Source: Marinitoga piezophila KA3 (GTDB lineage Bacteria; Thermotogota; Thermotogae; Petrotogales; Petrotogaceae). From it: a DNA stretch of 64,000 bases. Position numbers and translations under genes: made by a program. Shown here in pieces: positions 1 to 9,283 of this stretch. Under the pieces are notes generated by a model, which saw only the letters and a list, made by a program, of their open reading frames with translations, was not told where the DNA came from and did no database searches. Positions within the stretch are counted from its first letter, which is position 1. Each line of letters starts with the position of its first letter. The stretch is taken from contig NC_016751.1 of assembly GCF_000255135.1 (NCBI RefSeq), positions 1,612,001 to 1,676,000 of the forward strand. Direction: 5' to 3'.

Positions 1-1
1 T

Positions 2-1036
2 AATTATGGTGCAGCAGTTGCATCTCAGGCTTCAAAAAGAGGATTAAAATCAATAATTGTTCAAGAATGTTTTGACAGCAGAGGAATTGGACAACCAGAA
101 ATCCTTGAAAAAGCAAGAGCATGTGAAGCATATGGTGCAGAAGTTGTGCAATTAAGTGTTGGACCCGAACTCTTTTACTATTTCCTCGTTCTCCTTGAAG
201 AAACGGGGTATTTTAATGCTTCACTTTATACACCATTTGGTATAGCTGGTGTTGAAACATTGGGATATGAAATAGCAGAACAATCAATGAATCAATTTGG
301 AAAGTATCCTGATGCTGTTGTTATTACTCATGCTGGTGGTGGTAATGTAACAGGAACAGCCAGAGGATTGAAAAAAGCTGGTGCTGTTAATACAAAAATT
401 ATAGGTGCCAGTGTGGATCTTCATGGATTGCATATGGCATCAGATACAGACTTTAACAAAAAATCATTTACAACAGGTCATACAGGATTTGGAATACCAT
501 TTGCAACATTTCCGGATAGATCAGATGTTCCAAGAAATGCCGCAAGACCTTTGAGATATATGGATGAATATGTGCTTGTAACTCAGGGTGAAGTCTTCTA
601 TATTACAGAAATGCTTGCAAATATAGAAGGTATGCAGAGAGGACCTGCCGGGAACACATCATTAGCTGCTGCATTTGCATTGGCAATGGAAATGGAAGAA
701 GACCAGATAATTGTTGTAAACGAAACAGAATATACAGGTGCAGGTAAATTGCCTTCAGCACAGCTTACATTTGCAAAGGAAAATGGTATTGAAATAAAAT
801 TTGGAGATCCAATTGAAGAGGATAAACCAGGTAAAAACATAGTATTGCCTGATCATCCATCAAAGTTAAAGGTAATAAAATATCCAATAGAAAAAATGAG
901 AAAATCATATATAAAAGAATTAAAAAAGAGATTTGGAAAAACAGAATTTACAGAAAAGGAAATTGAATTTATTGCAGAAGATTTGAGGATTTCTACAGAA
1001 GAAGTGAAAAACCTTATTAAGGAGGTATTGAGCTAA
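2..1036 (+). CDS. ortB: 2-amino-4-ketopentanoate thiolase, beta subunit (OrtB), 5'-truncated by window edge
   Basis: The frame is open from base 2 to a TAA at 1034-1036 (344 visible residues), so the gene begins upstream of the window. The protein looks like a PLP-dependent fold-type II enzyme with glycine-rich cofactor loops (HAGGGNVTGTARG) and a C-terminal helical tail. OrtAB is known to cleave 2-amino-4-ketopentanoate with CoA and PLP to acetyl-CoA and alanine, the last step of oxidative ornithine degradation. The assignment rests heavily on context: the stop overlaps the ortS start by one base (TAATG), and ortE follows. The PLP lysine would lie in the missing N-terminal part. OrtA is expected just upstream. 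Confidence 0.85.
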   Translation, partial: NYGAAVASQASKRGLKSIIVQECFDSRGIGQPEILEKARACEAYGAEVVQLSVGPELFYYFLVLLEETGYFNASLYTPFGIAGVETLGYEIAEQSMNQFGKYPDAVVITHAGGGNVTGTARGLKKAGAVNTKIIGASVDLHGLHMASDTDFNKKSFTTGHTGFGIPFATFPDRSDVPRNAARPLRYMDEYVLVTQGEVFYITEMLANIEGMQRGPAGNTSLAAAFALAMEMEEDQIIVVNETEYTGAGKLPSAQLTFAKENGIEIKFGDPIEEDKPGKNIVLPDHPSKLKVIKYPIEKMRKSYIKELKKRFGKTEFTEKEIEFIAEDLRISTEEVKNLIKEVLS

Positions 1037-1407
1037 TGGAACCAAGAAAATCAGATTTTGAAGAAAGAGCAAAACATTTAATGAATATGTCCGATGAGGA
1101 ATTAGATAAATATTTCTGGGATCTTGTTGAAAAAGTAGTAGATCCTCTAATTGAATTAGCTTCAACACATACATCACCATCTGTTGAAAGATCTGTATTA
1201 TTGAGAATGGGTTTTAACAGTATGGAAGCAAAAGCATTAGTTGATAAATTCTTTGAAAAGAATATACTTGGCAAAGGTGCTGGAAATATTGTATATACAA
1301 TAGCCAAAGAACATAATATTGATTATATACAGGCAGGAAGAGACTTAATTGCAGGAAAATACTGGGACGATGTGGATAGAATTTTTATTCATGGAGGCGA
1401 TAAATGA
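1036..1407 (+). CDS. ortS: D-ornithine 4,5-aminomutase, small S subunit (OrtS)
   Basis: A 123-residue, mostly helical acidic protein of the size of the OrtS family. With OrtE it forms the adenosylcobalamin- and PLP-dependent mutase that moves the side-chain amino group of D-ornithine to give 2,4-diaminopentanoate. A Shine-Dalgarno (AAGGAGG) lies about ten bases upstream, inside the end of ortB. The ATG overlaps the ortB stop, and its own TGA overlaps the ortE ATG (ATGA), so translation is coupled across the three subunit genes. No cofactor motif is expected in this subunit; the name depends on the adjacent, well-recognised ortE. Confidence 0.88.
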   Translation: MEPRKSDFEERAKHLMNMSDEELDKYFWDLVEKVVDPLIELASTHTSPSVERSVLLRMGFNSMEAKALVDKFFEKNILGKGAGNIVYTIAKEHNIDYIQAGRDLIAGKYWDDVDRIFIHGGDK

Positions 1408-3602
1408 TGAAATTAGAGCCTAACAAAAAATTAAATGTAGAAGAAATCTTAAAGGATTTAGATAAATACAGACCAAAAAGAAAAGGTTGGACATGGAGAA
1501 AAAAATTACCTCCAAGAACCAAAATAGGAGAATTTGAATATTATGAAGTAAGCGAACCTCTAAAAAACTTTGTTGCATTACCAGCAGCACATTATTTCAA
1601 CAATATTGATCCACAACCACAGGAAGTAATTACATCAGAAATTGCTTCAGGTAGATTTGAAGAAGATATAAGAAGAATGAGAATGGCCGCATGGCATGGT
1701 GCAGACCATATTATGGTTATTAGAACATTAGGTCAAAGTCATATGGACGGTTTAATTGAAGGAACACCAGAGGGTATTGGTGGTATACCAATTACAAGAA
1801 AGCAATTAAGAGCTTCAAGAAAGGCTCTTGACTTAATAGAAGAAGAAGTGGGTAGACCTATAAACTTCCACAGTTATGTTTCTGGTGTTGCAGGTCCGGA
1901 AGTTGCTGTATTATTTGCTGAAGAAGGTGTAAACGGAGCTCATCAGGATCCACAATACAACGTATTATACAGAGGCATTAATATGATCAGATCATTTGTT
2001 GATGCTGCTGTTGCAAAAAAGATTATGGCATCGGTTGATATGCTTCAAATTGACGGAGCTCACAATGCAAATGCATCAGCAAAATTTGCATGGAAGGTTA
2101 TGCCAGAATTGTTGGTACAACATGCAATTAACTCATTATACTCAGTAAAGGCTGGAATGAAAAAAGAAAATATCGCTTTATCCACAGTTCCGCCAATAGT
2201 TTCACCAACACCAGAATTTAGATTAAACTTCGTATATGCAATAACAATAAGGGAATTATTCAAAGATTATAAATTTAGGGCACAAATGAATACAAGATAT
2301 ATAGAATCCGATCTCTTTGACGCAACAAGAATACACGTATTGGATACATTAATTTCCAGATTAACAAAGGCAGATATACAATCAACAATTACACCAGATG
2401 AAGGAAGAAACGTTCCATGGCACATTAACTCTATCCGTGGTGTAGAAACTGCAAAACACACATTAATTGCTTTAGACGGCATTAAAGAAATGGTTCAGAT
2501 TAACTGGGATAATGTAAGAGACAAAGTTAGAGAATTAAAGATGAGAGCTATATTAATGCTCGAAGAAATAATTGAAATGGGCGGATACTTTGAAGCTGTT
2601 GAAAATGGAATGTTCGTTGACAATGGCGAATATCCAGAAAGAATGGGCGATGGTATTGTAAGAAAGAAAGATGGAGGAATTGGAGCAGGTTCTGTTGTTC
2701 CAAGAGACAAAGACTACATGGCACCTGTATGTCACCACTTTGGTTATAACAACCTTCCAGAAGGTCTTGAAAAGCCATGTGACTTAATTGGTGGATGTAC
2801 ATTATGTAATCCTGATAAGATCCAATACATAGACGAACTTGATGAAGAGGATAATGTATATAAGAGACTTGAAAAAATAAGGGAATACAGAGAAAATAAC
2901 TTAATCAAACCAGAAGTAGAATGGAGTTATGACGGTTACATTCAGCTTGATATGACAATTCCTGAATCACCAGAATATGCAGAAGCAGCCGCTCTTGAAA
3001 TCTGTAAGAGAATGGGACTTGAAGACGCACAGGTTATTGCAAAAACAGTTCTTCACCCAACAGAAGGAACATATCTTGAGTTAAAGGCAAAAGTACCATT
3101 TGCTATTAAGAAGGACGAACTTGTATTGCCTAAAAAAGCAGAAGTAATGTCAGATGATGAATTATTTGAATTCTTTGCTAAAAACAAGGTAAAGGTTGTA
3201 GCTGGTACAGTTGGTAATGATGAACACAATGTTGGTATCAGGGAAATTCTCGATATTAAACATGGCGGTATAGAAAAATACGGTATAAAATATGAATATC
3301 TTGGAACAAGTGTTCCACCAGAAAAATTAATAGATGCTGCAATTGAATTTGGCGCACAGGCTGTACTTGCTTCAATGATTGTTACACATAATGATGTACA
3401 TGTTGAAAACATGAAAAAATTGCATCAATTAGCAATAGAAAAAGGTGTAAGGGATAAATTGTTATTAATAGTTGGAGGAACACAGCTAAATGACGATTTA
3501 GCAAAAGAAAATGGAATGGACGCAGGATTTGGAAGAGGAACAAAAGGAGCTCATGTTGCAACATTCATTGCAAAGAAATTAAAAGAAAAAATGGAAGAAT
3601 AA
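1404..3602 (+). CDS. ortE: D-ornithine 4,5-aminomutase, large E subunit (OrtE)
   Basis: A 732-residue catalytic subunit. Near residue 606 it has the cobalamin-binding signature DEHNVG (DxHxxG), with His608 as the predicted lower axial ligand of Co. Lys619 in DIKHGG, eleven residues later, matches the PLP Schiff-base lysine described for the Clostridium sticklandii enzyme, where both cofactors are held in one Rossmann-like C-terminal domain. The N-terminal part is the TIM-barrel substrate domain. Two adjacent ATGs (1404 and 1407) could start it; the first overlaps ortS by four bases. A strong terminator follows directly. The last 16 codons are repeated, nearly identically, at 5279-5326. Confidence 0.93.
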   Translation: MMKLEPNKKLNVEEILKDLDKYRPKRKGWTWRKKLPPRTKIGEFEYYEVSEPLKNFVALPAAHYFNNIDPQPQEVITSEIASGRFEEDIRRMRMAAWHGADHIMVIRTLGQSHMDGLIEGTPEGIGGIPITRKQLRASRKALDLIEEEVGRPINFHSYVSGVAGPEVAVLFAEEGVNGAHQDPQYNVLYRGINMIRSFVDAAVAKKIMASVDMLQIDGAHNANASAKFAWKVMPELLVQHAINSLYSVKAGMKKENIALSTVPPIVSPTPEFRLNFVYAITIRELFKDYKFRAQMNTRYIESDLFDATRIHVLDTLISRLTKADIQSTITPDEGRNVPWHINSIRGVETAKHTLIALDGIKEMVQINWDNVRDKVRELKMRAILMLEEIIEMGGYFEAVENGMFVDNGEYPERMGDGIVRKKDGGIGAGSVVPRDKDYMAPVCHHFGYNNLPEGLEKPCDLIGGCTLCNPDKIQYIDELDEEDNVYKRLEKIREYRENNLIKPEVEWSYDGYIQLDMTIPESPEYAEAAALEICKRMGLEDAQVIAKTVLHPTEGTYLELKAKVPFAIKKDELVLPKKAEVMSDDELFEFFAKNKVKVVAGTVGNDEHNVGIREILDIKHGGIEKYGIKYEYLGTSVPPEKLIDAAIEFGAQAVLASMIVTHNDVHVENMKKLHQLAIEKGVRDKLLLIVGGTQLNDDLAKENGMDAGFGRGTKGAHVATFIAKKLKEKMEE

Positions 3603-3605
3603 TAT
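3558..3605 (+). repeat. Direct repeat copy A: 3' end of ortE
   Basis: This 48-bp segment, the last 15 codons of ortE plus TAT after the stop, recurs at 5282-5329 in the same orientation with one mismatch (3566 C, 5290 T). The final 39 bp (3567-3605) are identical. The repeat spacing is 1724 bp and similarity stops right after the TAATAT at both ends. Confidence 0.9.
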
Positions 3606-3607
3606 AA

Positions 3608-3635
3608 AACCCCTCTGCACCACTGCAGAGGGGTT
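3608..3635 (+). terminator. Rho-independent terminator of the ort operon
   Basis: A perfect 12-bp stem (3608-3619 with 3624-3635) with a CCAC loop is followed by a T-rich run at 3637-3643. It starts six bases after the ortE stop and should end ort transcription before the islet genes on the other strand. Confidence 0.9.
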
Positions 3636-3665
3636 GTTTTTTTCTGTAATTTTCAAAATAACAAC

Positions 3666-3809
3666 CTATTTTTTATCATTTCTTTTATTATTTTCATTTT
3701 TTAATGGCAATTTCATTACTATATAAGATAATTTTATTATCGCAACCAATATTACAATTGAAAAGAGCAAATTCAAAATATTTATAAAACTTGTAAAATT
3801 AAAGTCCAT
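3666..3809 (-). CDS. Small single-pass membrane protein (47 aa), unrecognised
   Basis: An ATG at 3807-3809 with a strong Shine-Dalgarno (GGGGGAG, five bases upstream) opens a 47-codon frame ending at TAG 3666-3668. The peptide begins MDFNFTSFIN, has one hydrophobic helix at about residues 8-34 (FSIVILVAIIK within it), and ends in a charged Lys/Asn tail (NKRNDKK). This layout suggests a single membrane helix. It lies 11 bases downstream of the lipoprotein stop, probably in one transcript with that gene and the CPBP protease. Function is unknown; small membrane peptides next to CPBP proteases are sometimes toxins, bacteriocins or regulators, but nothing in the sequence proves that here. Confidence 0.6.
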   Translation of the reverse strand: MDFNFTSFINILNLLFSIVILVAIIKLSYIVMKLPLKNENNKRNDKK

Positions 3810-3820
3810 TATACTCCCCC

Positions 3821-4438
3821 CTAATAATTTATTTTATACGTTCCTGAAACACTTACATCATATGAATAAAGTTTTATTAAATTTTGTATTAGCAAATATA
3901 AATTTACAGTTCCACTTCCTCTCAAAGTTGCGGATTGCTTATCCGAACTTATTTCTACAGAAGCTTTTGGATATTCTAATTTTGCTGCTAAGGTCCATCC
4001 GGTTAAAGAACATCTTTCATTTGAGTAACTTAAAATTTCTCCAAATGAACCATCTTTAAAAATTTTTAAGTCTGCCATTACATTAAAATATATATTTGCG
4101 ATATTAAGATTATTCTTAGTTATTTTTTTTGAAAATTTAGCAGTATAATAAGAAGTATATCCTTTTGTAGTTAGTTTATTTGTCAATTCAAATCTAACAT
4201 TACTTTTATTCAAATTTGTTTTTGAAATTTCTTTAAGCAAATATTCCAATTCAAAAGAATTTTCTACTTTAATCGGTATAATGTTTTTTGGAATTTCATC
4301 TTTTTTTATAGTTTTTAAATTATATCTATTTGAAATTTCATCTATTCTCTTCATTTCATCAATTTCATTATTTGTTATACAAGAAGCAAAAAATAATATA
4401 AACATAAATGAAACCAACACAATTATTAATTTTTTCAC
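3821..4438 (-). CDS. Putative lipoprotein (205 aa), unrecognised family
   Basis: With the GTG at 4436-4438 the product starts MKKLIIVLVSF and runs through a hydrophobic stretch to the lipobox FASC, so it is predicted to be exported and lipid-anchored. The mature part is rich in Asn, Lys and Ser with alternating hydrophobic residues and no motif I recognise. An upstream 16-codon ORF ends in a TGA that overlaps this GTG (GTGA), which suggests coupled translation. A longer frame from a TTG at 4459 exists but puts seven extra residues before the signal peptide. The gene is part of the islet bounded by ortE-tail repeats. Confidence 0.65.
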   Translation of the reverse strand: MKKLIIVLVSFMFILFFASCITNNEIDEMKRIDEISNRYNLKTIKKDEIPKNIIPIKVENSFELEYLLKEISKTNLNKSNVRFELTNKLTTKGYTSYYTAKFSKKITKNNLNIANIYFNVMADLKIFKDGSFGEILSYSNERCSLTGWTLAAKLEYPKASVEISSDKQSATLRGSGTVNLYLLIQNLIKLYSYDVSVSGTYKINY

Positions 4439-4485
4439 AAAAAAAACACTTCCGTACAAAGATTACCAAAAATACGTTTATTCAT
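4435..4485 (-). CDS. 16-codon leader ORF upstream of the lipoprotein
   Basis: The only strong Shine-Dalgarno in this area (AGGAGGG) precedes ATG 4483-4485. That ATG opens a 16-residue frame (MNKRIFGN...VFFL) ending at TGA 4435-4437, one base inside the GTG start of the lipoprotein. It contains a run of eight T residues. Adding one T to that run would fuse the peptide in frame to the lipoprotein. It may be a coupling leader peptide, a slippage-controlled N-terminus, or the trace of a frameshift. Confidence 0.4.
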   Translation of the reverse strand: MNKRIFGNLCTEVFFL

Positions 4486-4513
4486 ACAATCCCTCCTGAT
4501 TTTTATATTTTTA

Positions 4514-4525
4514 TCTGGCGCCAGA
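4514..4525. promoter_or_regulatory. 12-bp GC-rich palindrome (candidate operator)
   Basis: TCTGGCGCCAGA is a perfect palindrome without a loop. It stands out in very AT-rich sequence between the CPBP gene stop and the leader ORF Shine-Dalgarno. A dyad of this form fits binding of a dimeric regulator better than a terminator, because no T run follows. The function is inferred. Confidence 0.35.
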
Positions 4526-4537
4526 AATTAATTTTTA

Positions 4538-5122
4538 TTAATTATAAAGTCCTTTTACAAAATTGTTGAGAAAGTGATAAAGCATAGGTGAATATATTGA
4601 TTTAGACTTTTTAAATGAATAATAATAAATTATTGCAGAGATAAAGACAAATAATTTCCCATCTAACAATGTATATTGTTCATGAACGACAGCAAAAATA
4701 AATGCTGAAATAAAACAAATTAACTTATTATTTTTAAATATAATTTCCAAAAAACTTATCACTATTAATCTATATAATATTTCTTCATATATAGGTGCCC
4801 AGGTTATACTCATTAAATCTATTGAAAAAAAAGCATTAAAATCAAAATTTTTAATCTTTATATATATTCCGAAAAGATAAAATATCAATATAAATAAAAG
4901 CAATTTATCTTTAAATATAATAGTAAAATTATTAAATTTAAAATAGAATTTTAACGTTTCATCGCCTTTTATTTCAATATAAACCGCTATAAGATATAAA
5001 AGAAACATTATAGCCCAAAAATATGAAATAGTAGAAGTGATTCCAACGTAAGCTATAGCAATAATGTGAAAAAATATTATTATTTTTATTCTAAATGACT
5101 GATTTTCCATATTATTTATCAT
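4538..5122 (-). CDS. CPBP (CAAX/Abi-type) intramembrane metalloprotease
   Basis: A 194-residue polytopic membrane protein with the three signature motifs of the CPBP family: EExxxR at residues 113-118 (EEILYR), a conserved His at 147 (FAVVH), and HxxxN at 183-187 (HFLNN). About six membrane segments are visible. Members cleave within the membrane; in bacteria many sit near bacteriocin or peptide genes and give self-immunity or process peptides. No clear Shine-Dalgarno precedes the ATG at 5122, and a second ATG lies four codons in. It is probably the first gene of the three-gene minus-strand islet. Confidence 0.8.
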   Translation of the reverse strand: MINNMENQSFRIKIIIFFHIIAIAYVGITSTISYFWAIMFLLYLIAVYIEIKGDETLKFYFKFNNFTIIFKDKLLLFILIFYLFGIYIKIKNFDFNAFFSIDLMSITWAPIYEEILYRLIVISFLEIIFKNNKLICFISAFIFAVVHEQYTLLDGKLFVFISAIIYYYSFKKSKSIYSPMLYHFLNNFVKGLYN

Positions 5123-5278
5123 AAATTTTCACATTTATAGTATTTTTATATTTTTTTTAATTATATCAAAAGAAAAAAAGAAATCAATACAAATAAAAAA
5201 TTTTACCTTATATTTCCAATATTTAAATTTATAATTAATATATCAACTGATTAAATAATAACAATATAATATGGATGC

Positions 5279-5326
5279 ATCGCAACATTTATTGCAAAGA
5301 AATTAAAAGAAAAAATGGAAGAATAA
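5279..5326 (+). pseudogene. ortE 3'-end remnant
   Basis: The last 16 codons of ortE (IATFIAKK...EE stop) are present here without the rest of the gene. Compared with ortE the copy has one conservative codon change (GTT to ATC, Val to Ile) and one silent change (TTC to TTT). It has no start and should not be expressed. It is either the mark left when the islet inserted at the ortE 3' end or the relic of a deleted second ortE. Confidence 0.85.
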
Positions 5327-5329
5327 TAT
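5282..5329 (+). repeat. Direct repeat copy B: ortE-tail repeat near the tRNA cluster
   Basis: This is the partner of 3558-3605: same orientation, 47 of 48 bases identical, and it closes the islet. The bidirectional terminator and tRNA-His follow within 50 bases. Confidence 0.9.
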
Positions 5330-5341
5330 TATAGAAATAAC

Positions 5342-5372
5342 AAAAAAAGACCCAAATAATGGGTCTTTTTTT
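5342..5372. terminator. Bidirectional terminator after the tRNA cluster
   Basis: A 13-bp stem (5342-5354 with 5360-5372) is built from A7GACCC and its complement with an AATAA loop. Read on the minus strand it ends the tRNA operon with a T run; read on the plus strand it also ends in T7. Confidence 0.88.
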
Positions 5373-5374
5373 GT

Positions 5375-5450
5375 TGGGGTGGCATGTGGGATTTGAACCC
5401 ACGACATCCTGATCCACAGTCAGGCGTTCTACCACTGAACTAATGCCACC
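5375..5450 (-). tRNA. tRNA-His (anticodon GTG)
   Basis: The cloverleaf folds with anticodon stem-loop CTGACTGTGGATCAG and T-loop GGGTTCAAATCCC. It has the His-specific extra 5' G paired with C73. The CCA end is encoded. It is the last gene of the four-tRNA operon. Confidence 0.95.
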
Positions 5451-5469
5451 ATCACTAAATAAAAAAAGG

Positions 5470-5546
5470 TGGCGCGCCCAGAGGGACTCGAACCCCCAAC
5501 CCTTGGATTAGAAATCCAATGCTCTATCCTATTGAGCTATGGGCGC
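5470..5546 (-). tRNA. tRNA-Arg (anticodon TCT)
   Basis: Acceptor stem GCGCCCA pairs with TGGGCGC. The anticodon loop is ATTTCTAAT with TCT, and the T-arm is GGGGGTTCGAGTCCC. CCA is encoded. It abuts tRNA-Gly with no spacer. TCT reads AGA, a heavily used Arg codon in this AT-rich window. Confidence 0.95.
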
Positions 5547-5622
5547 TGGAGCGGCCGACGAGACTCGAACTCGCAACCCCTGGCTTGGAAGGCCAGTGTT
5601 CTACCAATTGAACTACAGCCGC
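5547..5622 (-). tRNA. tRNA-Gly (anticodon TCC)
   Basis: Acceptor stem GCGGCTG pairs with CGGCCGC, allowing wobble. The anticodon stem-loop is CTGGCCTTCCAAGCCAG, and CCA is encoded. Its 3' end touches the 5' end of tRNA-Arg at 5546. Confidence 0.93.
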
Positions 5623-5642
5623 ACAGAAAAACCGCCACCTTC

Positions 5643-5718
5643 TGGTCGGAGCGACTGGGATCGAACCAGCGACCTCCGGTTCCCAAGACCGGCGCGCTAC
5701 CATCTGCGCTACGCTCCG
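5643..5718 (-). tRNA. tRNA-Pro (anticodon TGG)
   Basis: Acceptor stem CGGAGCG pairs with CGCTCCG. The anticodon stem-loop is CCGGTCTTGGGAACCGG, the T-arm is CTGGTTCGATCCCAG, and CCA is encoded. It is the first gene of the tRNA operon, about 34 bases downstream of a consensus promoter. Confidence 0.95.
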
Positions 5719-5751
5719 CCACTTACCGTCTTCATTCGACGTCCGAGAATT

Positions 5752-5780
5752 ATAATACCACAAAAATCAAATTCTGTCAA
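5752..5780 (-). promoter_or_regulatory. Strong sigma-A promoter of the tRNA operon
   Basis: On the minus strand TTGACA (5775-5780) is followed after 17 bases by TATTAT (5752-5757), preceded by TGG as an extended -10. A TATAAT overlaps three bases further on. This near-consensus arrangement fits a stable-RNA promoter. Confidence 0.8.
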
Positions 5781-5810
5781 GTTAAAAATTATTTCAAGTT
5801 TTTTACAAGT

Positions 5811-6518
5811 TTATAGCTCATCGAGCTGTTTTACAATTTTTTGTAACACATCAGGCTCTTCATAAAAGGAAACTACCTCACCATCTATTGTTTCTATAGT
5901 TAAACAAAATGTTTCAAGGTGCGGTTTATGAAGGGTTCTGAGCCTTCTGTTCGGCATAAATAAATCACGTATTTTTACGTAGTATAATTCTTGATTGCTT
6001 TTTATATCATATAGATTATAACTTTTTATATCTGATTTATTTATAATGCGTTTATAATAATCGCCATTTGGCATTTGAACAGAAAAAGCGATTTTTCCAT
6101 CTTTTATACCTAAAATGCTTCCTAATAACTTTCCAATTTCTTCTATTGAAGAAACTTCACCACGACCAAAAAATAAATGATAGAAATTCCAATCTTTTTC
6201 ATTTTCACCGCTTTCTGATAAATATTCTTTTAAAATATCAATTTTTTTCTCATCATTTGCTGCAACAAGAAATATAATAGCTACTGTTATTAAATAAGCA
6301 AGTATAAATAAGTTAGTAAATCCAAATAACAATGCAATAGCTTCTGCTGCTATAATTGTTCCTGCCAAAAAGGAAAATACCTGTTTTCCTTGAAGTTTTA
6401 ATATTCTATAGAATATTATAAAAAGTATTAATGAAACACCGAAAAAAGCCCAACCTTTTATAAAATACTGCAATAATGGGGTTAATCCAAATAATATTGC
6501 TAAAATACTATAATTCAT
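5811..6518 (-). CDS. Membrane protein of unknown function (235 aa)
   Basis: About four hydrophobic segments fill the first 90 residues. A soluble C-terminal half of about 145 residues follows, containing NPxR-like basic patches and beta-strand-like stretches, so it is probably a membrane-anchored cytoplasmic domain. The gene starts 12 bases after the mnmE stop with a good Shine-Dalgarno (AGGAGG), so it is likely the second gene of an mnmE operon. I do not recognise the family. Its end lies about 90 bases from the tRNA-Pro gene, and the tRNA promoter lies in that gap. Confidence 0.75.
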   Translation of the reverse strand: MNYSILAILFGLTPLLQYFIKGWAFFGVSLILFIIFYRILKLQGKQVFSFLAGTIIAAEAIALLFGFTNLFILAYLITVAIIFLVAANDEKKIDILKEYLSESGENEKDWNFYHLFFGRGEVSSIEEIGKLLGSILGIKDGKIAFSVQMPNGDYYKRIINKSDIKSYNLYDIKSNQELYYVKIRDLFMPNRRLRTLHKPHLETFCLTIETIDGEVVSFYEEPDVLQKIVKQLDEL

Positions 6519-6529
6519 TTTCGTACCTC

Positions 6530-7873
6530 CTATTTTCCTACGCAGAAATTTCCAAAAATATTATCAAGAAGTGTTTCTGTATAATCTTCGCCTGTTAATT
6601 CATTTAAAGATTCGATAGATTTTCTTACATCAAACATTATAGCATCATTGGTAAGACCTAAATGAATACCATTTAGAGCATTTTCAATAGAATCGATAGC
6701 TTTTTTAACAGCGTTTTTTTGTCTTTCGTTAGTGAGGGTATACTCTTTTGTAATTACCACATCTTTTAATTCGTTATAAATAAGATTTTCTAATTCCTGG
6801 ATTTCACCATTTGCAGCGGAAATTTTCACTATTTTATATTCCTTCCATGGGATATCAATTTTATCGGTATTTTTTATATCTGATTTATTTATTACAATTA
6901 CAATTTTTTTGTCTGTATAGTTTTTTATTTTTTCAAAGATTTCAAGATCATAATCTTCAATTCCAGTGGAATTATCAAGAACAAATAATATCATTTTTGA
7001 TTCCTCAATAGCTTTTAACGAACGTTCTACGCCTATTTTTTCTACAATATCTCCTGTTTCTCTAATTCCTGCTGTATCAATTACTTTTATATATATACCT
7101 CGAATGTTTAAATTTTCTTCTATAGTATCTCTGGTTGTTCCAGGAATATCAGTCACTATAGCTCTATCTTTTCTTAAAAGTGCATTTAAAAGTGTGGATT
7201 TTCCAGCATTTGGTTTTCCAACAATAGCCATTTTAATTCCTTCAACTGCTGCAATTCCGTTATCAGCATTTTCATATAGATAATTGAGTTTTTCTTTTAC
7301 AGAATTAAGGGAATCCAAAAATTCAAAGTTGTCAACTTCAAAATCATCAGGATAATCCATTTCAACTTCAATTCTTGCCGCAATATTGTATAAGACGCTT
7401 TTTAATTCTTTTATATCTTTTGAAAGCTTTCCGTCTATTTGACTTGCTGCAGCTTTTAAGGAATATTCTGAGTTAGCGTGTATCATTTCATTTATAGCTT
7501 CAGCTTTTATAAGATCCATTTTTTTGTTCATTACAGCACGTTTAGAGAATTCGCCAGGCAAGGCTTCTCTTACACCTAAAGATAAGATTATATTTAATAT
7601 TTTTTTTGTAAGGAGAATACCACCATGTCCAAATATTTCGAGCATATCTTCGCCTGTGTAGCTTTTTGGTCCCTTATGATATACCCACGTTACTTCATCA
7701 ATTAATTCATTATTTTGTTTTAGAAAACTATAATACATATATTTGGGTTTTGGATTTTCCATATTAAATAGTTCTTTAATAACTTTAATAACTTTATCAC
7801 CAGATAGTCTTATTACTGAAATTGCTCCAGTTCCTGGAGGCGAAGAAATTGCAGCAATAGTATCAAAAATCAT
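6530..7873 (-). CDS. mnmE: tRNA uridine-34 modification GTPase MnmE
   Basis: A 447-residue protein with all MnmE parts. The N-terminal formyl-THF-binding domain begins MIFDTIAAISSPPGTGAISVIR. A helical domain carries an inserted Ras-like G domain with P-loop GKPNAGKS (about residue 222), switch DIPGTTRD, DTAG and NKSD. The C-terminus is the conserved CVGK containing the catalytic Cys. With MnmG it installs the aminomethyl group at wobble uridine of some tRNAs. The start is preceded by AAGGAGTGG. A TGATATAAT promoter lies about 30 bases upstream, between the gene and the inverted-repeat element. Confidence 0.96.
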   Translation of the reverse strand: MIFDTIAAISSPPGTGAISVIRLSGDKVIKVIKELFNMENPKPKYMYYSFLKQNNELIDEVTWVYHKGPKSYTGEDMLEIFGHGGILLTKKILNIILSLGVREALPGEFSKRAVMNKKMDLIKAEAINEMIHANSEYSLKAAASQIDGKLSKDIKELKSVLYNIAARIEVEMDYPDDFEVDNFEFLDSLNSVKEKLNYLYENADNGIAAVEGIKMAIVGKPNAGKSTLLNALLRKDRAIVTDIPGTTRDTIEENLNIRGIYIKVIDTAGIRETGDIVEKIGVERSLKAIEESKMILFVLDNSTGIEDYDLEIFEKIKNYTDKKIVIVINKSDIKNTDKIDIPWKEYKIVKISAANGEIQELENLIYNELKDVVITKEYTLTNERQKNAVKKAIDSIENALNGIHLGLTNDAIMFDVRKSIESLNELTGEDYTETLLDNIFGNFCVGK

Positions 7874-7902
7874 ATAACCACTCCTTGAAAAATTTCTGAT
7901 TT

Positions 7903-7911
7903 ATTATATCA
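7903..7911 (-). promoter_or_regulatory. Extended -10 promoter of mnmE
   Basis: On the minus strand the sequence reads TGATATAAT, about 30 bases before the mnmE start. No good -35 is seen. The same nine bases precede at least six other genes in this window. Confidence 0.6.
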
Positions 7912-7955
7912 TATTAATGTAGTTTCTTTTTTTAATATTATAATTTTTTATTGTA

Positions 7956-7978
7956 AATATAGATTTACTGAAATTAAA
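7956..7978 (+). repeat. Left terminal inverted repeat
   Basis: 23 bp, exactly complementary to 8672-8694. It begins AATATAGATTTACTG. Similarity ends sharply on both sides. Confidence 0.85.
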
Positions 7979-8060
7979 TCATCTTTTATATTAAAGTTAT
8001 TTTAAAAGTAGAAAAATAATATTCTCTCAGACGACAAGAATTTCTGATCTTTGTTCTATA

Positions 8061-8255
8061 AAAAACACTCCTAAAAAGGTTCATTCAGGCGGTGAAATTT
8101 CTTATTCCTCACTCCAATATTGCTTGCCGCCGCCGCTCAGACATCGCCTCCTGCGCTGCTTCGCTAAAAATCACATCCGTGTGATTTTTACGGCTCACGC
8201 AATATCTCCGTTCGGGAAATTTCAAGCCTTCATTCACCTTTTTACTCGTGTTTTT
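8061..8255 (-). repeat. Large imperfect hairpin 1
   Basis: The arms AAAAACAC/GTGTTTTT, TAAAAAGGT/ACCTTTTTA and TGAAATTTC/GAAATTTCA pair, then AATATTGC/GCAATAT. Inside, a perfect 10-bp hairpin (8166-8175 with 8180-8189) has loop CGGA on the minus strand, closed by CA...TG. The central part (8123-8160) is GC-rich. The minus strand is probably the sense strand, because the ACGGAT-type loop then matches the loops of hairpin 2. Confidence 0.7.
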
Positions 8256-8350
8256 TATGTTTTACTTATATAATAAAATATAATAAGAAATAAGAAAATA
8301 GAAATAATAATATGAGCGAAAACTTGAAAATTCCGAAGAGAAACAACTAT

Positions 8351-8544
8351 GATTGAGAAAAATAAAAACGAACGAAAACTCGCAGGTTGCCCGAGAAAAT
8401 CACGAATGGAGGCTGTCAAAAAAACAGGATGTTTTTTTGAGCGCAGCTTCTGCAGGGATGCAGAATCTAAGCGACAGCCGGGAATGAGTGATTTTCGAGG
8501 ATTAGCAACCAAGTTGTTTGAGGGAGTTTTTATTTTTCTCAATC
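8351..8544 (+). repeat. Large hairpin 2 with two inner stem-loops (three-way junction)
   Basis: A perfect 19-bp outer stem (8351-8369 with 8526-8544) is followed inward by GGTTGC/GCAACC, AAAATCAC/GTGATTTT and GGCTGTC/GACAGCC (8411-8417 with 8473-8479). Within it sit two perfect hairpins: A7CA-GGA-TGT7 (8418-8438) and TTCTGCA-GGGA-TGCAGAA (8448-8465). The fold resembles a structured RNA more than a protein-coding region. Confidence 0.75.
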
Positions 8545-8671
8545 AACAACACAAAAGGACGAACATGGATGTGAGTCTGCAACAACCGGTGGGAACAAGA
8601 ATTTTTGAGGATTAGTATCGAGCTCCAAGAGTAAATGTTTTTATAAAGTTTCCTAATAAATATTTTTTTAC

Positions 8672-8694
8672 TTTAATTTCAGTAAATCTATATT
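8672..8694 (-). repeat. Right terminal inverted repeat
   Basis: Exact reverse complement of 7956-7978. It ends two bases before the -35 box of the acetyltransferase gene. Confidence 0.85.
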
Positions 8695-8695
8695 A

Positions 8696-8724
8696 TTGAC
8701 AGAAAAAAGAATTTTTGATATAAT
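8696..8724 (+). promoter_or_regulatory. Consensus sigma-A promoter of the acetyltransferase gene
   Basis: TTGACA at 8696-8701, a 17-base spacer and TATAAT at 8719-8724 with an extended -10 TGA. The -35 starts two bases outside the terminal inverted repeat, so the element edge forms the upstream flank of this promoter. Confidence 0.85.
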
Positions 8725-8752
8725 TAGCTTAACGAAATATGGGGGTGGAATT

Positions 8753-9283
8753 ATGTTAGAAGGGAAATTAGTGAAATTAAGAGCTTATTCAAAAAATGAT
8801 TTAGAAAAGGTTCTTGAATATATTAATGATGAAGAAGTTAGAAAGAATTTAATGCCGGGGATTCCTTATCCTTTTAGAATGGAAGATGAAGAAAAGTGGT
8901 ATGAAAAACTCAATCCTTTTGGTGGAGGAAAGTATGATTTTGCTATTGAATTAAAGAAAACCGGAGAATATATAGGTGGTTGTGGGGTAAATGAAATAGA
9001 TTGGAAAAATTCTGTAGCTACTGTCGGAATTTTTATAGGGAAACCTTTTTTTAATAAGGGATACGGAACAGAAGCTATGAAGTTGCTTGTTGATTTTGTT
9101 TTTAAAGAAATGAATATAAATAAAGTGAAGTTGCATGTTTTTAGTTTTAATCAAAGAGCGATAAAATCATATGAAAAAGTTGGATTTAAAGTTGAAGGAA
9201 TACTAAGAGAACAAATTTTTAGAGAAGGAAAATATCACGATGAAGTAATAATGGGGATATTGAGGAAAGAATGGAATAAATAA
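8753..9283 (+). CDS. GNAT N-acetyltransferase, RimJ/RimL-SpeG type
   Basis: A 176-residue acetyl-CoA-dependent acetyltransferase. It starts MLEGKLVKLRAYSKNDLEKV as in RimL/SpeG-like proteins. The acetyl-CoA-binding segment GKPFFNKGYGTEAMKLL is at about residues 98-114, and the C-terminal NQRAIKSYEKVGFKVEG strand-helix is typical of the family. The substrate cannot be told from sequence; spermidine, ribosomal proteins or other amines are possible. The ATG at 8753 was chosen because GGGGGTGG precedes it and the longer frame from 8696 runs through the promoter. It is convergent with ispE and shares its terminator. Confidence 0.88.
   Translation: MLEGKLVKLRAYSKNDLEKVLEYINDEEVRKNLMPGIPYPFRMEDEEKWYEKLNPFGGGKYDFAIELKKTGEYIGGCGVNEIDWKNSVATVGIFIGKPFFNKGYGTEAMKLLVDFVFKEMNINKVKLHVFSFNQRAIKSYEKVGFKVEGILREQIFREGKYHDEVIMGILRKEWNK

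Follow-up and report, generated by a model that had tools for sequence, protein, structure and literature searches.

Three small genes follow an oraE-type aminomutase gene in the window, the stretch of 64,000 nucleotides analysed here. Comparison with sister genomes shows that they form a one-species chimera at a variable site after oraE, composed of a module with a CPBP protease (module A) and a module with a putative lipoprotein and a 47-residue peptide, pep47 (module B). With a little under even confidence, we read this islet as part of a shuffling antagonism and immunity regulon, similar to the pneumococcal blp cassettes, in which the protease would serve in immunity or in peptide processing.

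The genes of the islet

The islet belongs to a genome (G000) of 2,244,793 bases in two contigs of 2,231,407 and 13,386, and has the following features.

1404-3602, strand opposite to the three islet genes: oraE-type aminomutase gene
3558..3605, plus strand: 48-nt direct repeat, left copy, which is the 3' end of the oraE-type gene
3608..3635: hairpin resembling a terminator, between oraE and pep47, with a terminator score on either strand
3666..3809, minus strand: gene for pep47, a 47-aa single-helix membrane peptide, no family above cut-off
3821..4459, minus strand: putative lipoprotein gene, 212 aa from the TTG at 4459, the longest frame
4435..4485, minus strand: 16-codon remnant, MNKRIFGNLCTEVFFL, of the gene for a secreted protein found after CPBP in sister species, identified from a seven-locus alignment and the frames
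4538..5122, minus strand: gene for a CPBP (Rce1-like) intramembrane protease, 194 aa, complete motifs, PF02517
5125..5261, minus strand: shared Marinitoga promoter element 5' of CPBP, core TGATATATTAAT at 5234-5245
5187-5182 and 5165-5160, minus strand: promoter boxes 5' of CPBP, -35 TTGATT and -10 TATAAT
5282..5329, plus strand: 48-nt direct repeat, right copy, at a synteny break before the tRNA-His cluster

The open reading frames and their spacing agree with the preliminary description, in which the three genes were collinear, closely spaced and on the minus strand, and the flanking 48-nt repeat was indeed found on both sides, in copies that are 98% identical. Between the repeats there are only the three ORFs and the remnant, with no recombinase or transposase detected by reading the ORFs and by a Pfam scan of the three proteins, and no Gly-rich peptide of the kind described below. 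An Rfam scan of the islet returned four tRNAs and no other RNA family. Among the ORFs of positions 1-9000, neither a regulator nor an ABC transporter lies beside the islet, which is bordered by oraE genes on one side and by tRNAs and an mnmE-type gene on the other.

Of the three proteins only the protease matched a Pfam family above its cut-off (PF02517, E 3.6e-14, 53.3 bits against a cut-off of 22.4). The catalytic motifs of CPBP proteases are EExxxR, FxxxH and HxxxN, and all three are present, as EEILYR, FAVVH and HFLNN at residues 113, 143 and 183. No relative with a solved structure was found up to E 1. The myxosortase, JDVT and Synerg-type CPBP sorting proteases belong to the same superfamily and gave weak NCBIfam matches (E 6.9e-5 to 1.6e-4), but at 21.9-22.9 bits these fall far under the curated cut-offs of 75-130. 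For the lipoprotein, a start at the GTG at 4438 (VKKLIIVLVSFMFILFFASC) is likelier than the TTG and gives the lipobox FASC; the corresponding lipobox, again by reading, is LTSC in a broken copy from G006.

The islet is a chimera at a variable site

Among 61 genomes, the trio occurs together in one, that of the window. The preliminary description had raised a possible three-gene system, and a search for the lipoprotein and peptide near CPBP elsewhere went against it, since relatives of the lipoprotein and pep47 were found away from CPBP; for the lipoprotein these were Bacillus plasmids, Brevibacillus phages, a Thermotoga MAG contig and the broken copies of G004, G006 and G007. A three-gene system as a conserved unit was rejected. 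When the sequence after the CPBP gene is aligned from seven loci, the ribosome site and first codons agree, and beyond them the window sequence runs on as the lipoprotein gene; the stop of the 16-codon remnant frame overlaps the lipoprotein GTG. Window positions 3667-4440 match contig C22 of G006 at 73.6%, and on this contig a frameshifted lipoprotein gene and an intact pep47 lie together, on another contig than CPBP. The shared sequence after CPBP with its remnant, together with the separate G006 locus, shows that the islet is module A with module B grafted onto it. Module A comprises the promoter and CPBP, followed in the sisters by a secreted protein with an MNKRIF-type signal peptide, of which the ribosome site and first codons are all that persists here, and module B would have been recombined in at the remnant junction.

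The surroundings of the islet are themselves rearranged. In three of the four relatives with a flank that could be compared (G001, G003 and G005), the tRNA-His cluster follows the same other gene, which we take to be an adenosylhomocysteinase. In G002 it follows something else, and the contigs of G004 and G006 end too near. In the window genome, two genes that lie beyond oraE in the relatives, presumably oleate-hydratase-like and TetR-like, are found 0.7 Mb away. Insertion by a repeat-making element is disfavoured, given that no recombinase was seen, that the stretch compared in G001 and G003 holds a single repeat copy, and that a synteny break is adjacent. The earlier proposal that the three genes travel in one repeat-bounded islet was not confirmed: CPBP stands beside oraE in G001 and G003 with one copy of the repeat, and the right copy in the window sits at the synteny break. 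For the 48-nt repeat, a rearrangement scar seems a better reading than the ends of an insertion.

The CPBP cassette has moved between species

CPBP is found in eight of the 61 genomes, comprising six of the seven in the genus and two distant genomes, and is absent from G005. Both copies in G002 are decayed, and the copy in G004 is truncated and lacks the EExxxR stretch. The window gene is 91.1% identical in DNA to the copies of G001, G003 and G006 (oraE, 87.4-88.3%), and comparison with G003 gives a dN/dS of 0.34, which indicates purifying selection. In G001, G003 and G006 the gene is apart from the lipoprotein and pep47 genes. In G001 and G003 it adjoins oraE and the gene after it encodes a 139-aa secreted protein starting MNKRIF, and in G006 CPBP and an MNKRIF gene (136 aa, with a different end) begin contig C54 while oraE is at the end of contig C8.

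Comparison of these cassettes indicates recent exchange. The promoter and CPBP of G003 are 100% identical to those of both G001 and G006; the MNKRIF partner gene of G003 is 100% identical to that of G001 and 95.4% identical to the G006 copy. The flanks are less alike, at 93.4-94.9% for oraE and 89.1% for the gene on the other side (G003 against G001 and G006). A cassette that is 100% identical between species, within flanks that are only 89-95% identical, must be one that moves, and the alignments thus show that it spread recently between species. Between G001 and G006, the gene on the side away from oraE is also 100% identical, so a larger stretch was exchanged among them. Compared with its relatives, the window copy has lost ~210 nt of leader as well as the GGG in its ribosome site, and so CPBP may be fading in this species. 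A plasmid search gave no match to CPBP and none to the Gly-rich peptide.

The secreted proteins encoded after CPBP share similar MNKRIF or MNKYIF signal peptides and have different mature parts (L038:5112-5531, L041:90-500, L049 at ~3880-4075 on the minus strand, and L050:4054-4461). One of them is a short peptide that ends GGSSSGGGPREL.

The 47-residue peptide is a real gene

The strong ribosome site reported for pep47 is present, with GGGGGGAG ending 4 nt before the ATG. The peptide occurs in five of the 61 genomes, all Marinitoga, and the copies have the same start with a ribosome site before each, although the G002 copy ends at 35 aa. Conservation of the frame, on which the preliminary description had staked the peptide, was borne out by pairwise dN/dS values of 0.14-0.44, as expected under purifying selection; these comparisons span 35-53 codons, offer few synonymous sites and reach a dS of 1.27. 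We conclude from the sequence comparison that pep47 is a real gene, and it matched nothing above cut-off in Pfam, NCBIfam or PHROGs. It is apart from CPBP in G001, G002, G003 and G006, stands alone in G001 and G003, and in G002 lies beside oraE, directly after the element described below and before a gene for a 173-aa membrane protein.

The lipoprotein keeps mobile company

Matches to the lipoprotein were found in five of the 61 genomes; the copies in the window and in G048 seem intact, and those in G004, G006 and G007 are broken by stops or frameshifts. A profile of the C-terminal domain extended this to six of 103 genomes of the phylum, where the matches in G046 and G064 are weak but lie in open frames. 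The same domain is common to plasmid and phage proteins. In a database search, the lipoprotein matched a secreted protein from Bacillus plasmids with 27% identity over 172 aa (E 1e-5) which, unlike the window protein, has no lipobox by reading. It is encoded on two mobilizable plasmids, between rep and relaxase/mobilization genes, and matches phrog_20411 and proteins of Brevibacillus Jimmer-type phages (29.7%), whose genes adjoin a recombinase gene. The phage link runs through this Bacillus protein, as the window lipoprotein had no direct relative in viral contigs or phage records. No CPBP or 47-aa peptide is annotated near the Bacillus and Brevibacillus relatives in the stretches viewed, for which the plasmid gene tables are incomplete.

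A search of genome contigs with the whole lipoprotein gave no match, and a search with the domain alignment returned a Thermotoga MAG contig and a Tannerellaceae contig, the latter of which was judged a chance match and set aside. Two structure models of the lipoprotein had mean pLDDT values of 57.5 and 40.1, too poor for use, and a PDB search with the first returned nothing at E <= 0.001. For the Bacillus relative, the search of solved structures gave only an unrelated methyltransferase at E 0.65. The company that this family keeps is that of mobile cargo, which is consistent with a role in competition and no proof of one.

Two neighbourhoods of relatives are described for completeness. In the Thermotoga MAG (G048 contig C35, L055:74-4199; L110 is the same contig), genes for radical-SAM/SPASM and YcaO proteins follow that of a 116-aa secreted protein carrying the C-terminal domain, in a RiPP-like layout; a RiPP link for the lipoprotein, suggested by this radical-SAM/YcaO pair, comes from one contig and was set aside. 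Other, distant relatives (L107:1483-2292 with 2441-3190; L109; G046 and G064) are near a 73-80 aa secreted DDGGGT peptide, and the G046 and G064 loci also encode a divergent, possibly TPR-like protein, an arrangement that by reading resembles peptide signalling.

A promoter element shared across Marinitoga

Sequence like that upstream of CPBP (5125-5261) stands before various genes in sister genomes, with 71-91% identity in the aligned copies. We aligned 14 copies, one per near-identical group and the window's included. In this alignment 29 of 192 columns are invariant, and TGATATATTAAT, the 12-base core, is the only invariant run of more than two columns; collecting the copies by similarity would by itself yield some identity, though not identity concentrated in a single run. 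The alignment thus shows an element common to these loci. An exact pattern, TGATATATTAAT-N22-34-GTAAA, had 18 matches in the seven Marinitoga genomes against one for a reversed control. A looser pattern had 20 matches against two, 15 of the 20 being element-like by reading, and added the pep47 of G003. Among 31 other genomes of the order, the pattern was no commoner than its control (two matches against three), so the element appears confined to the genus. Within the window, the core matches only once at <=1 mismatch, where chance would give 3.9 matches to so short a word. The case for the element rests on its position and its relatives rather than on the core being rare.

By reading, 13 of the 18 exact matches have -35 and -10 boxes in place, one is a relic and four (L087, L092, L097 and L099) were judged chance. 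The same judgement, made from the matched letters only, was reached for five of the 20 looser matches (L116, L120, L128, L132 and L133), and of the two matches outside the genus, in G010 and G011, the former is inside a peptidase-like ORF and was also judged chance. Behind the 14 exact-pattern elements we found CPBP (four), a decayed CPBP (one), Gly-rich peptide operons (five), a lone membrane gene (one), pep47 (one), an MFS-like gene (one) and a relic beside oraE (one). The G006 lipoprotein has a divergent form of the element, and no recognisable element precedes the G001 pep47. Another element-led operon, of a kind unlike the Gly-rich type, encodes a 197-aa protein, a 91-aa peptide and a membrane protein (L075:1640-3103, G003).

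Gly-rich peptide operons of the sister species

In the Gly-rich operons the element is followed by a first protein of unknown kind, a Gly-rich peptide of 103-109 aa, and a membrane protein of ~105 aa whose gene overlaps or directly follows. Operons of this kind were found at the following loci:

L086, G003
L089, G001
L094, G004
L101, G006
L103, G006
L073, G005

The N-terminal halves of the Gly-rich peptides are 86-100% identical in all 15 pairs from six distinct loci. The C-terminal halves fall into two types, with 58-98% identity within and 39-50% between types, and the next (membrane) genes split the same way (38-100% within, 23-32% between). Comparison of the loci thereby shows matched types of peptide and membrane gene, the C-half type agreeing with the next-gene type in six of six distinct loci (two, L078 and L084, are nearly identical); in type B, identity between the membrane genes of different species is only 38%, little more than the 23-32% seen across types. 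G006 holds one operon of each type, for which the N-half is 98%, the C-half 48% and the next gene 23% identical. The first gene is frameshift-split in G001 (L089) and at one G006 locus (L101), and shortened in G004 (L094). In G005 (L091, contig C35), a deletion has removed the first gene and the start of the peptide; what remains is the promoter (92%) and a block of 514 bp that contains the membrane gene and is 99% identical to its G004 counterpart. Retention of the membrane gene without the start of its peptide is as expected of an immunity gene.

Those Gly-rich peptides and membrane genes that were scanned gave no bacteriocin or immunity family above cut-off, the best hint being DUF6861 below its cut-off, so the antagonism reading is drawn from the genetics. 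The operons resemble polymorphic toxin systems (PMC3482391) in the constant N-half, the exchangeable C-half and an immunity-like gene that follows the C-half type. They differ in that the proteins are tiny (103-109 aa) and contain no known toxin domain. That paper gives such systems as relatively rare in Thermotogae.

Outside the window, the same genome encodes a circular bacteriocin at G000:C2 ~538,985-539,263 (L079:1920-2198), which matches PF09221 (Bacteriocin_IId, uberolysin-like) with E 4.2e-26. A single circular bacteriocin of Thermotogae, which may be this one, is reported in PMC8534725.

Comparison with blp cassettes

In pneumococcal blp cassettes the CAAX proteases BlpY, PncP and BlpG have a putative immunity role, and these cassettes (PMC4517551), like the Marinitoga loci, place a CAAX/CPBP protease beside variable peptide and membrane-protein genes, vary in content between strains and carry signs of recombination. 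A CAAX protease also adjoins the angicin bacteriocin cluster (PMC9298176). The Marinitoga genes differ in belonging to another phylum, in being scattered over several loci linked by the shared upstream element, and in the absence of regulatory or ABC-transporter genes from the islet; no bacteriocin family matches their Gly-rich peptides, in which a long constant N-half takes the place of a short leader. Set against the make-up of a blp-type class II locus, the islet has the CAAX protease, lacks the regulator and the ABC transporter, and its peptide, pep47, matches no known precursor family above cut-off in Pfam or NCBIfam. The literature library searched has no paper on both Marinitoga and bacteriocin; among the matches listed, none joined Marinitoga with antimicrobial peptides, and one paper on radical-SAM genome mining joins antimicrobial peptides with Petrotoga.

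By this analogy, CPBP probably acts in immunity, or it may process a membrane-active peptide. The protease would be expressed from an element that drives bacteriocin-like operons at other places in the genus and pep47 in other species, and the element would define a small competition regulon. The lipoprotein and pep47 would be envelope cargo of the same traffic, as immunity or effector proteins, and shared promoters and leaders would let cassettes swap by recombination. We infer toxicity, immunity, co-regulation and homologous recombination as the route from the sequences. The preliminary idea of a toxin/immunity cassette survives in part: its toxin/immunity flavour gains support because CPBP and pep47 each share their upstream element with polymorphic bacteriocin-like operons, but a three-gene unit conserved across the genomes was not found.

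Alternative explanations

We considered whether the site after oraE is simply a recombination hotspot that collects small AT-rich genes without a joint role, the element being no more than a good promoter inherited by common descent. The decay, truncation or loss of CPBP in G002, G004 and G005, the broken lipoprotein copies in G004, G006 and G007, the several element copies that are relics and the synteny breaks at the site would all follow from such orphan-gene turnover. It sits less well with purifying selection on pep47 and on CPBP, with 12 invariant core bases in otherwise divergent elements, with the matching of toxin and membrane-gene types and with the recent spread of the CPBP cassette between species, and we regard it as rather unlikely.

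Two narrower explanations concern the peptide. CPBP and pep47 could be partners in trans that usually lie apart, with the protease degrading or processing the peptide and the lipoprotein incidental. A complete CPBP and a full-length pep47 occur in the same four of seven Marinitoga genomes (G000, G001, G003 and G006), which makes a functional pairing in trans possible; one or both are impaired or missing in the others (decayed CPBP and a 35-aa pep47 in G002, truncated CPBP and no pep47 in G004, neither in G005), and both genes can follow the same element. Seven genomes make a small sample, however, and the CPBP genes of G001, G003 and G006 are identical in DNA, so these are not four independent cases, and the two genes are adjacent only in the window genome, where the lipoprotein gene separates them. 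Of the functional link proposed earlier between protease and peptide, the co-occurrence thus stands and the shared neighbourhood does not, and we consider partnership in trans quite improbable as the full account. Still less probable is that pep47 is a stand-alone small membrane toxin, in the style of type I toxin-antitoxin systems, or a leaderless bacteriocin, with CPBP irrelevant. Its size, one hydrophobic helix with a charged tail and own strong ribosome site would suit such a toxin, as would its different loci in each species and its position in G002 between the element and the 173-aa membrane gene, but it has no match above cut-off in Pfam, NCBIfam or PHROGs, Rfam finds no RNA family in the islet besides tRNAs, and the G001 and G003 copies stand alone with no obvious antidote.

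A possible competition regulon in Marinitoga

In its broader form the regulon reading is slightly more tentative. It holds that a genus-specific, TGATATATTAAT-marked regulon comprises interchangeable antagonism cassettes, among them undescribed Gly-zipper toxins in which the N-half is constant and the C-half swapped, each with a membrane immunity gene to match. CPBP with its variable secreted partner would have swept between species, and pep47 would be a further effector or immunity peptide on which CPBP may act.

If this is true, peptide warfare with swappable toxin and immunity genes would extend to deep-vent Thermotogota, and a short DNA motif would predict the members of a competition regulon. 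An orphan CPBP protease would also gain a testable role, as would a secreted-protein family common to Bacillus plasmids and Brevibacillus phages. The islet itself is a chimera, and its promoter leads to what is apparently an undescribed competition regulon.
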